Source: Bacteroidetes bacterium GWF2_38_335 (GTDB lineage: Bacteria > Bacteroidota > Bacteroidia > Bacteroidales > GWF2-38-335). From it: 64,000 nt of DNA. Where the stretch lies: positions 1 through 64,000 of the forward strand of contig MEOH01000001.1 in the NCBI GenBank assembly GCA_001769535.1, given 5' to 3'. Numbering within the stretch: position 1 is the first letter of the stretch; every line of letters starts with the position of its first letter. The translations under genes were made by a program, and so were the position numbers. The notes under the pieces were generated by a model that was not told the origin of the DNA, ran no database searches, and worked only from the letters and a program-made list of their open reading frames with translations. Of the stretch, positions 86 through 45,430 are shown one piece after another.

Positions 86-471
86 AATCTTACCTTCTGA
101 TTAATTTTATCATTCATTTCCGCCGGAATGAGGTTTTTCGTTCTGATGTGTTCATGGCCGGCGGGCCCCTGGGCAATTGCCCGGGGCTACCATAATATAA
201 GCCCTCCAGGCTTATTAACACCCCGGCTTGACCGCGTATCGTTGAAGCTGCGCCACCGCTAAAGCTAAGGCGGCACGCGGTTTAACGTTTCACCTACGGC
301 AAGTCTGAAGATAAACCTTTGGCGAACGAAGGGAGGCACAAAGCCGGGGCTGAATTGAGCTGGCCTTTCAGGCCGTTTGCTTAAAAGTATTTAGGTGTTT
401 AATCAAAATATCCGGCTTCCAACTTCCGACTTCCAACTTCGGTCTTCCGACTTTTCAATCTTACCTTCTGA
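86..471. repeat. GC-rich structured intergenic element flanked by 15-bp direct repeats
   Basis: The 15-mer AATCTTACCTTCTGA occurs at 86-100 and again at 457-471. Between the copies lies a stretch (about 150-385) clearly richer in G and C than the surrounding DNA and full of inverted repeats: a 10-bp palindrome at 167-186 centred on CAATTG with one G-T pair, a 6-bp hairpin at 198-203/209-214, a 9-bp long-range stem CCCCGGCTT (221-229) with AAGCCGGGG (341-349), and inside it ACCGCGT (231-237) with ACGCGGT (275-281). I see no convincing ORF. The nested stems suggest a folded RNA or a REP/MITE-like element. Which of these it is cannot be decided from one copy. Confidence 0.5.
414..455. repeat. 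7-bp-period tandem repeat
   Basis: Six consecutive heptamers can be read: GGCTTCC, AACTTCC, GACTTCC, AACTTCG, GTCTTCC and GACTTTT. The block lies in the gene-free first 642 bases, just inside the second copy of the 15-bp direct repeat. It has no coding potential that I trust. Confidence 0.7.
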
Positions 472-43877: not shown

Positions 43878-44177
43878 TTATTCACTGCGCATCTTACCTT
43901 TATGCTTCTTTAATTGGCGTCTCAGTGCTTCAACAGCGATATCGGTGGCTGCTTCAAAAGTTTTTGATTGCTTCTTTGCAAATAAATCATTTCCAGGTAT
44001 TTCAAGTTTAATCTCTGCGATTTTATTTTCAGCATTTTGAGCTTTATCAAGTCTCAAGGTTACTTCGATGCCAATAATATTTTCAAAATACTGATTCAAT
44101 TTTTCAACTTTTGATTCTACGAATTCTTCCAGCTTTTGATCCGCATCAAAACGTAATGAATGAATTGTTACTTTCAT
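43878..44177 (-). CDS. Ribosome hibernation promoting factor (short HPF/RaiA family)
   Basis: 99 residues, the short form without the dimerisation domain of long HPF. The pattern HSLRFDADQKLEEFVESKVE and a basic C-terminus (ALRRQLKKHKGKMRSE) fit the beta-alpha-beta-beta-beta-alpha fold that binds the 30S decoding centre and stops idle ribosomes. The start ATG 44177 is preceded by a textbook Shine-Dalgarno (44185-44190), the only one of that strength I found. It follows the XerC-like gene by 30 bases and precedes the tRNA operon. Confidence 0.92.
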   Translation of the reverse strand: MKVTIHSLRFDADQKLEEFVESKVEKLNQYFENIIGIEVTLRLDKAQNAENKIAEIKLEIPGNDLFAKKQSKTFEAATDIAVEALRRQLKKHKGKMRSE

Positions 44178-44184
44178 GGTAATT

Positions 44185-44190
44185 TCCTCC
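44185..44190 (-). promoter_or_regulatory. Canonical Shine-Dalgarno GGAGGA before the hibernation factor
   Basis: On the minus strand the sequence reads CGGAGGAAATTACCATG, so GGAGGA lies 7-8 bases ahead of the ATG at 44177. Other starts in the window have only AT-rich or weakly purine leaders. Bacteroidota ribosomes generally mask the anti-Shine-Dalgarno with bS21, so this site probably has a regulatory meaning. Confidence 0.85.
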
Positions 44191-44207
44191 GTATTAATTA
44201 ATTAGTT

Positions 44208-45089
44208 TTATTCTCTTGGATGTGCCTGTTTATAGGCTTTGATTAGTTTTTCAAATGTATTGTGTGTATATATTTGTGTGGCAGACAGATTGGCATGACC
44301 CAACAACTCTTTAATTGCATTCATATCTGCTCCATTATTTAGCATATGGGTCGCAAAAGTATGGCGCAGAACATGAGGACTCTTTTTCTCGAGTGTTGTT
44401 ACATATCCAAGATATTTGTTTACTATTCTGTAAACCAACTTATCGTATATTTTCATTCCAGCCGCTGTCAAAAACAAATAATTTAAATCAGTCCCAAACT
44501 CACTATTCCTATACGTAATATACTCGGATAAGGTTTTTCTTAATTCAAAGTGAAACGGAATAATTCTCTCTTTATTTCTTTTTCCGAGAACTTTTATTGA
44601 ATTATTATACACATCCACATCGCCAAGTTTTAGATTAATAAGCTCTGAAAGCCTGATTCCGGTTGCATAAAAAAGTTCAATTATGGTTTTATCGCGGATA
44701 CCTTCATAATTATCTTCAAAATCGAAATTATCAATTAAGGTATCCATCTTTTCAGCTTCGACAAAAACCGGGAGTTTTTTACCCATTTTTGGAGAAATAA
44801 CCCTTTCCATGGGATTTTCAACAACAACTCCCTCTCGCATCAAATATTTATAAAATGATTTAAGTGTTGATAGTTTTCTTTTAACTGATCTGGGAGTTGT
44901 GCCATTATTTATCATGGTTAGCACCCAGGTTCTTATTGTTTTATGGGTTGTCTTTGAAGGATCAAAAGGTTTCCCCTCTCCCTCACAAAACTCAAAAAAC
45001 TGATCAAGGTCGGCAGTATATGACCTCAGAGTATGCTGAGAATATCGCTTTTCGTGTTGCAGGTATCGTAGGAAGGAATCCTTGTGCAT
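44208..45089 (-). CDS. Tyrosine recombinase, XerC/XerD family
   Basis: 293 residues from ATG 45089 (MHKDSFLRYLQHEKRYSQHT). A TTG 12 bases upstream is rejected. The N-terminal SAM-like core-binding domain is followed by the catalytic domain with Arg in TGIRLSELINLKLGD, HVLRHTFATHML (His, Arg), LLGHAN (His) and the Tyr nucleophile in IYTHNTFEKL. It is expected to resolve chromosome dimers at dif. I did not find a dif-like 28-mer here. It starts 13 bases after the rpsU terminator. Confidence 0.93.
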   Translation of the reverse strand: MHKDSFLRYLQHEKRYSQHTLRSYTADLDQFFEFCEGEGKPFDPSKTTHKTIRTWVLTMINNGTTPRSVKRKLSTLKSFYKYLMREGVVVENPMERVISPKMGKKLPVFVEAEKMDTLIDNFDFEDNYEGIRDKTIIELFYATGIRLSELINLKLGDVDVYNNSIKVLGKRNKERIIPFHFELRKTLSEYITYRNSEFGTDLNYLFLTAAGMKIYDKLVYRIVNKYLGYVTTLEKKSPHVLRHTFATHMLNNGADMNAIKELLGHANLSATQIYTHNTFEKLIKAYKQAHPRE

Positions 45090-45101
45090 ATATAAAAACA
45101 A

Positions 45102-45130
45102 TTGCCTTCTCTTCTACGAAGAAAAGGCAA
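45102..45130 (-). terminator. Terminator between rpsU and the XerC-like gene
   Basis: TTGCCTTTTCTTC and GAAGAGAAGGCAA (minus strand; 13 bp with one G-T pair, 3-base loop) are followed by a T-rich run (TTGTTTTTATA). The hairpin ends 13 bases before the recombinase ATG, so the recombinase would depend on read-through. Confidence 0.8.
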
Positions 45131-45165: not shown

Positions 45166-45357
45166 CTAAATTTCTTCCTGTTGTAATTGCTGGATGTAAA
45201 CGGCTTTAATTCTTACTTCGCGGTTTTTAACAGATGGTTTTTTAAAAGCCTGTCTTTCCCTTAACTCTTTTACAATTCCTGTCTTTTCAAATTTTCTTTT
45301 GAATCTTTTCAACGCCCTGTCGATGTTTTCACCTTCTTTTACTGGTATAACTATCAT
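45166..45357 (-). CDS. rpsU: 30S ribosomal protein bS21
   Basis: 63 residues. MIVIPVKEGENIDRALKRF and RELRERQAF-like basic helices are typical of S21. The C-terminal extension of Bacteroidota bS21 is present, with Tyr54 (RIKAVYIQQL), the residue position reported in Flavobacterium johnsoniae to help sequester the 16S 3' end. The leader AAAACAAAGTAATT has no Shine-Dalgarno. It has its own full-consensus promoter. Confidence 0.95.
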   Translation of the reverse strand: MIVIPVKEGENIDRALKRFKRKFEKTGIVKELRERQAFKKPSVKNREVRIKAVYIQQLQQEEI

Positions 45358-45399: not shown

Positions 45400-45430
45400 C
45401 AAATGTATGAAAATGATTTATAATAATCAA
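45400..45430 (-). promoter_or_regulatory. Promoter of rpsU (TTG-N20-TACATTTG)
   Basis: On the minus strand, TTG (45430-45428) and TACATTTG (45407-45400) are 20 bases apart, an ideal Bacteroidota promoter, 42 bases before the rpsU ATG. Confidence 0.78.

Follow-up and report, generated by a model that had tools for sequence, protein, structure and literature searches.

A conserved Shine-Dalgarno sequence upstream of the short hibernation factor gene hpf in Bacteroidales, and its possible link to ribosomes with an exposed anti-Shine-Dalgarno

In Flavobacterium johnsoniae the tail of the 16S rRNA is held by bS21, bS18 and bS6, and reporters with a strong Shine-Dalgarno sequence (SD) are up when bS21 is mutated or depleted or when its Tyr54 is lost (PMC9976891; this and the other papers cited are used as far as the available parts of their texts go). 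With a bS21 truncated at its C-terminus, AGGA is unresponsive, AGGAGGU increases more than 2-fold and rpsU more than 4-fold, while wild-type cells gain nothing from a strong SD and show a somewhat lower output (PMC9976891). The screens of that study covered whole genomes for the Flavobacteriales and ribosomal-protein genes elsewhere, and the control was concluded to be apparently limited to rpsU. For the Bacteroidia, rpsR and other ribosomal-protein genes were named as SD genes (Jha 2021, via PMC8710568 and PMC9976891). A more distant parallel are yeast ribosomes depleted of eS26, in which a missing protein near the exit site of the mRNA likewise shifts the choice of mRNAs, including those of stress genes; there, however, Kozak positions and not an SD are concerned, which makes it an analogy only (PMC9976891).

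The window, which is the whole stretch of 64,000 nucleotides that was analysed, encodes rpsU, a xerC-like gene and hpf one after the other. Its features are, in the direction of transcription:

45400..45407, minus strand: TACATTTG, promoter-like -7 element upstream of rpsU
45166..45357, minus strand: rpsU (bS21), 63 aa, Tyr54 present, without SD, two genes upstream of hpf
45102..45130, minus strand: stable terminator-like hairpin between rpsU and xerC, a 13-bp stem followed by TTGTTTTT (U tract)
44208..45089, minus strand: xerC-like tyrosine recombinase gene between rpsU and hpf, with an in-frame TTG at 45101 as alternative start
44178..44207, minus strand: gap of 30 nt from the xerC stop to the hpf start, containing the SD
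44185..44190, minus strand: SD GGAGGA, whose 5-bp GGAGG core pairs with CCUCC of the 16S rRNA, 7 nt from the hpf ATG
43878..44177, minus strand: hpf, short ribosome hibernation-promoting factor, 99 aa, ATG start at 44177 (PF02482, TIGR00741)

The minus-strand letters up to the hpf start read 5'-TAATACGGAGGAAATTACC-ATG, where the ATG occupies 44177..44175. The hpf product, an S30AE-domain protein of the short form (PF02482, 79.5 bits), resembles the HPF/YfiA short hibernation factors in being a TIGR00741 member above the cut-off (53.2 bits, cut-off 40.9), and scores 54.1 bits with the E. coli hpf equivalog NF007780, below its cut-off of 125. The xerC-like protein stays slightly under the TIGR02224 cut-off (328.8 versus 335.15 bits). 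The TACATTTG before rpsU is presumably a -7 element of the Bacteroidota type, judged by the consensus TAnnTTTG; a motif of that type lies 15-110 nt upstream of rpsU at 42 of 46 loci of the order. A hairpin comparable to the one between rpsU and xerC is found at only 5 of the 46 loci, and in the window genome it would partly separate rpsU from xerC-hpf. A second TACATTTG, again of the Bacteroidota -7 type, is located in the xerC tail (window 44252-44259), about 80 nt upstream of hpf. TAnnTTTG occurs 64-108 nt upstream of hpf in 15 of 55 genomes of the order, where triplet shuffles expect 2.3. However, the motif there also spells conserved codons, and an internal hpf promoter within xerC is indistinguishable from codon constraint and was not retained as a candidate.

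The sequence-only reading of this DNA had described GGAGGA shortly before the hpf start as a lone SD, absent from rpsU and the other genes of the window. The site and its spacing hold, and within the window so does its singularity: GGAGG is present at positions -20 to -1 of one out of 43 predicted genes, hpf. No SD was found in the tuf leader of the window, and the best helix of the rpsU leader reaches -4.4 (energies are our own contiguous-helix stacking sums in kcal/mol, which differ from free_scan values; the threshold of -9 used below was our choice, set after a first look at the data). The pattern GGAGGN{4,10}ATG is listed at 16 places in the window and a gene start is recognised only at hpf, the other 15 opening frames that do not exceed 67 aa, of which the longest is antisense inside another gene. 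Genome-wide the term lone fails. In a sample of 326 predicted genes from the same genome (464 kb or 8.8% of 5.27 Mb, one stretch being picked for its rpsR) five leaders have GGAGG, namely those of hpf, rpsR, rplI, an ftsH and a PrkA kinase. With -10.95 the hpf leader takes rank 8 of the 326; pairing of -10.9 or better is attained by 8 real leaders, compared with 10 of 326 mock windows, and at -9 or below the numbers are 17 and 21, so that SD pairing overall does not exceed the mock level. Taken alone, the strength of the hpf SD in the window genome is no better than chance, and the case against chance therefore has to come from the orthologues. In G228, a complete relative, hpf reaches -16.2 and is second of 263 sampled genes, the hpf stretch being included in that sample on purpose.

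Sixty genomes of the order were searched, consisting of the window's own, one of the same genus and 58 others, one per family. An hpf is present in 56 of them and its start is readable in 55; four genomes without a match and G045, without a readable start, were excluded, and second hpf-like copies in G016, G044 and G046 were left out of the counts. GGAGG precedes hpf in 44 of the 55 genomes, which answers the earlier proposal to survey hpf leaders for its conservation; the lack of conservation named there as refuting is not what was observed. Pairing reaches -9 or below in 48 of 55 leaders, with a median of -14.9, and is weaker than -9 in the remaining 7; of the mock windows, placed 24-45 nt upstream, 1 of 55 reaches -9. 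Among the control genes, read at the same hpf loci and at 30 rpsR loci, GGAGG is found in none of the leaders of tuf (0/44), xerC (0/51), rpsU (0/46) and rpsF (0/28). A similar picture is given by named genomes, of which the best 80 of at least 528 confirmed loci were read; since these loci were found with the hpf profile they are biased to similar proteins. Here GGAGG is present before hpf in 65 of 80 cases, compared to 0/62 for tuf, 0/50 for nusG, 1/77 for xerC and 3/77 for rpsU. Marinilabilia salmonicolor, Alkaliflexus imshenetskii, Geofilum rubicundum and Carboxylicivirga linearis all contain the hpf site. Chance as the sole account of GGAGG at hpf is ruled out by these orthologue controls. 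The ftsH site of the window genome, which is of similar strength (-11.5), is not kept in the same-genus genome G001 (-3.9). Because of the orthologue counts against the gene controls and this loss of the ftsH site, selection very probably acts on the hpf SD, and base composition does not account for it. In the best explanation the SD on the short hpf of this order of the Bacteroidia is thus selected and probably functional.

In all 44 leaders with GGAGG, searched within 20 nt, the last G lies 4-10 nt from the ATG (4-8 nt in 42 of them), unlike the distance to xerC, which varies. An A precedes GGAGG in 31 of the 44 leaders, above the leader average (p 0.0002), and a U follows in 21 (p 3e-5), by which the pairing with ...CACCUCCUUUCU is lengthened. 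In the named set (best 80 of at least 528 loci) the following U is at background, 13 of 65. The window site has neither of the two extensions and with its 5 bp is among the weaker ones. The 16S tail is CACCUCCUUUCU in all six relatives that were matched; the probe has CACCTCC as its own end and gave no match in 54 of the 60 genomes.

A few other genes carry strong sites as well, and the second refuting condition of the sequence-only reading, many other genes with equally strong sites, applies to this extent. In the window genome rpsR and rplI (L172:10267-11014, plus strand, C10) have SDs of -14.9 and -14.0, and the preceding rpsF has none. Within the order GGAGG precedes rplI at 21 of 30 and rpsR at 15 of 31 loci, and 20 of 31 rpsR leaders reach -9 or below. 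These counts are from the 30 best-scoring loci of 58 matched genomes plus one rpsR in an hpf locus, with the window's own genome absent. The hpf site is more consistent than that of rpsR, both for GGAGG (44/55 versus 15/31) and at -9 or below (48/55 versus 20/31), and of the eight gene families that were compared (hpf, rpsR, rplI, rpsF, xerC, rpsU, tuf and nusG) none has an SD as consistently as hpf. The gene ftsH was considered as a further member of the SD set and rejected, since only 3 of 30 loci, the window genome's included, reach -9 at the first ATG, and 9 of 30 if the better of two possible starts is taken. Among the sampled genes of the window genome the strongest SD, AGGAGGT with -15.27, belongs to a PrkA-type serine kinase gene (L163:14186-16267, minus strand, C1). 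Relatives of PrkA are stress or stationary-phase kinases, and the gene may belong to the same set of messages as hpf. In 12 genomes, picked because their hpf has AAAGGAGGT, sites of that strength were counted at 103 places versus 53 for the reversed pattern. Of the 103 places 70 were read by eye, and apart from hpf no family was noted at more than two of them with a likely gene start. In L364 and L441, two genomes of the order from different families, the genes that start after AAAGGAGGT are presumably CorA-like transporters, as assigned by eye.

The earlier reading also placed the hpf signal in relation to bS21 and rpsU. Tyr54, which it reported for the bS21 of the window, is indeed there and is present in all 51 distinct bS21 sequences of the order. 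It further suggested a variant of the rpsU circuit with hpf in place of rpsU, and proposed to survey rpsU leaders too. In the order this agrees with GGAGG, found before hpf and in none of the 46 rpsU leaders (1 of 29, G009, in an overlapping set). The contrast is blurred by energy, since rpsU leaders are not uniformly weak and 14 of 46 reach -9 or below. An extended rpsU SD of less than -13, as in the bS21-depletion circuit, is found neither in the window nor in most of the order, where 2 of 46 leaders reach -13 or below. As a rule for the class the replacement did not stand. In 198 genomes searched for the class, six of them in the order, with rows picked partly by listed coordinates and partly one per family, 72 hpf leaders and 66 pairs of hpf and rpsU outside the order were used. 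The hpf site is patchy there, with 24 of 72 leaders at -9 or below and GGAGG in 19; 48 leaders are weaker than -9 and 53 lack GGAGG, despite Tyr54 in 64 of 68 bS21 proteins. The rpsU leaders reach -9 or below in 21 of 69 cases, and 10 of the 69 have GGAGG. At the threshold of -9 both genes have a site in 8 genomes, only hpf in 14, only rpsU in 13 and neither in 31, which means no association (Fisher p 0.59, 66 pairs), and a clean exchange of hpf and rpsU across the class is unsupported. Salibacter halophilus is the reverse of the window, with -21.6 for rpsU and -7.8, without GGAGG, for hpf. A tree of the hpf and rpsU proteins (101 rows) needs at least 17 changes of the hpf SD and at least 9 of the rpsU SD, and is too weak for a correlation test. 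Thus, judged from these leaders, in the order the signal is on hpf and mostly not on rpsU, and the class shows all four states. The four bS21 proteins without Tyr54 outside the order (L291, L317, L318 and L319) have R, F, R and K; GGAGG is found in 0 of 4 rpsU leaders and 0 of 3 hpf leaders read in these genomes, as would be expected if SD use depended on the pocket, though the number is tiny.

Compared with the rpsU autoregulation of F. johnsoniae (McNutt 2023, PMC9976891), the locus is alike in having an SD in an SD-poor class, a Tyr54 bS21, the platform and the anti-SD as proposed sensor, and a target near rpsU. It differs in that the target is hpf and not rpsU, that there is no autoregulatory loop, and that it is known from sequence alone. 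The pairing is mostly weaker, with a median of -14.9 and -10.95 for the window, compared to -14 to -21 on another scale for the published rpsU (PMC9976891). With the rpsR-type SD genes (PMC8710568, PMC9976891) it shares the order, a similar strength and the conservation across the order; the screen behind them covered ribosomal-protein genes, and hpf is a hibernation factor. The SD genes named in the available parts of these two papers are rpsU, rpsR and other ribosomal-protein genes, not hpf. PMC9976891 contains neither 'hpf' nor 'raiA' and has 'hibernation' a single time, in a reference; PMC8710568 and PMC10783764 contain neither 'hpf' nor 'hibernation'. The literature searched, of which Jha 2021 and the supplements are not part, showed no description of an SD at hpf for any of the Bacteroidota. 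The signal and the proposed sensor are already known and the hpf target appears to be new.

To what was directly observed (the hpf site, its conservation, the gene controls, Tyr54 and the anti-SD of six relatives) we add a mechanism by analogy. As in F. johnsoniae, the anti-SD CCUCC would be hidden in a pocket of bS21, bS18 and bS6, and for that reason ordinary ribosomes would gain little from the hpf SD. When bS21 or bS18 is short, a 30S subunit with an incomplete or open pocket would pair with the hpf SD and translate hpf preferentially, along with rpsR and rplI, and HPF would then park ribosomes. Given the Tyr54 bS21 and the canonical anti-SD in relatives, we infer that hpf, along with rpsR and rplI, is among the messages that subunits with an exposed anti-SD would prefer here. 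Such ribosomes of this order would then have hpf and not rpsU as a main output, and the sequence suggests that ribosomes lacking a part could bring about their own storage. Each step beyond the SD is an inference: the hiding of the anti-SD in this species, the preference of pocket-deficient subunits for hpf, and the connection with hibernation. We give about an even chance to hpf being a second target of exposed-anti-SD ribosomes, by which a platform shortage (bS21/bS18) would be linked to hibernation. In F. johnsoniae a strong SD somewhat lowers the wild-type output (PMC9976891), and it would be odd for an SD to be retained for nothing but ordinary initiation. Against the proposal it has to be said that the window site (GGAGG, 5 bp, -10.95) is weaker than AGGAGGU, the weakest reporter shown to respond, and in strength lies between that and the unresponsive AGGA. 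The E. coli route to 100S particles depends on RMF. RMF was detected in the E. coli control and in 0 of 60 genomes of the order, so that this route would be unavailable and HPF would act without RMF.

The best of the other explanations, possible but on balance unlikely, is that the SD merely boosts initiation at an operon-internal cistron, acts on all ribosomes and senses nothing. In two genomes SDs of -13 or below are more frequent where another gene lies closely upstream (8/184, versus 1/405 without; p 0.0005; mock 2 and 3). Among these eight are one hpf and, as two others, rpsR and rplI, which are also internal genes behind an rpsF without SD. Such a concentration fits a role in reinitiation or in operons, and as a real tendency it keeps a plain boost or a coupling role in consideration. 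On the other hand, F. johnsoniae wild-type ribosomes do not profit from a strong SD (PMC9976891), most close-neighbour genes have no strong SD, and pairing over all sampled genes is not above mock. The SD also stays where hpf is 94-119 nt from a xerC-like frame (L228, L247 and L256, labelled Sphingobacteriales or Daejeonella; xerC named by eye) or away from xerC, as in L040 of G057, the sole exception in the order, where a promoter-like motif lies 108 nt upstream of hpf.

Clearly less probable is translational coupling, in which ribosomes finishing xerC would reinitiate at hpf and be held there by the SD. The arrangement would suit it: in 54 of 55 genomes of the order xerC lies at most 400 nt before hpf, with a median gap of 18 nt (48 non-overlapping gaps; six overlapping ones and G057 left out), and the xerC frame overlaps the hpf start in five relatives. 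At 46 loci of the order rpsU is in the same locus. However, hpf also follows xerC outside the order (60 of 63 class genomes tested), and in 41 of these 60 the hpf leader is weaker than -9. Adjacency thus does not explain the hpf site, and coupling to xerC as the sole account is rejected. In E. coli and H. volcanii hardly any coupling is left at gaps of about 20 nt (PMC10666635), while the window has 30 nt and neither the overlap nor the very short gap typical of termination-reinitiation, and SDs are present at the gaps of 94-119 nt. Bacteroidetes were moreover found not to use the SD for reinitiation (Huber 2019, PMC6728339).

It is still more doubtful that the 5-bp site of the window genome is a relic or a chance string without function, though relatives use theirs. 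Its strength is matched by mock windows of the same sample, and it lacks the A run and the U that extend pairing in many relatives. But G001 retains ACGGAGGAA at hpf with -10.95, and over their final 14 nt the leaders of both genomes are almost identical while the upstream part diverges, and the ftsH site of the window genome was not kept in that relative. That GGAGG is the site of an RNA-binding regulator such as CsrA and not of the ribosome, as the CsrA motif AnGGA and the frequent overlap of CsrA sites with SDs might suggest, is very unlikely as the sole account, given GGAGG at ribosomal spacing and PF02599 in 0 of 60 genomes by a search that detects it in E. coli, B. subtilis and T. maritima.

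If the link between exposed-anti-SD ribosomes and hpf is true, ribosome composition would be tied to hibernation and specialised-ribosome control would be wider than rpsU autoregulation. A more far-reaching version, to which we hold only tentatively and which we rate a little below even, is that Bacteroidales 30S subunits with a deficient platform, bS21 or bS18 being absent, are specialised ribosomes that prefer hpf, read their own incompleteness via the exposed anti-SD and make the factor by which ribosomes are stored; the published rpsU-only view would then hold for the Flavobacteriales only. Bacteroidales are abundant in guts and sediments, and little was found in the literature searched on the control of their ribosome storage. 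The conserved hpf SD in a class that avoids SDs is a direct genetic handle, one that can escape a screen confined to the Flavobacteriales or to ribosomal-protein genes. The sequence-only reading is thus supported in part, for a real and order-conserved site, an rpsU without GGAGG there and Tyr54; its idea that hpf is switched on when bS21 runs short is a hypothesis, and an exchange between hpf and rpsU is no rule across the class.

A few minor observations were made on the way. The second S30AE-type match in G016, G044 and G046 is divergent, and the G016 copy (L057) has no SD. The record titles of L206, L210 and L229 (Chitinophaga pinensis, Bacteroides fragilis and Chryseobacterium gleum MAGs) appear doubtful for their sequences. 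Finally, CCTGGAGGGCTTATATTATGGT is repeated at least four times in the window genome (window 191-207; L155 5856-5872; L167 7803-7819; L168 15998-16014), and its copies without a gene downstream mark it as a small dispersed repeat and not a gene start.
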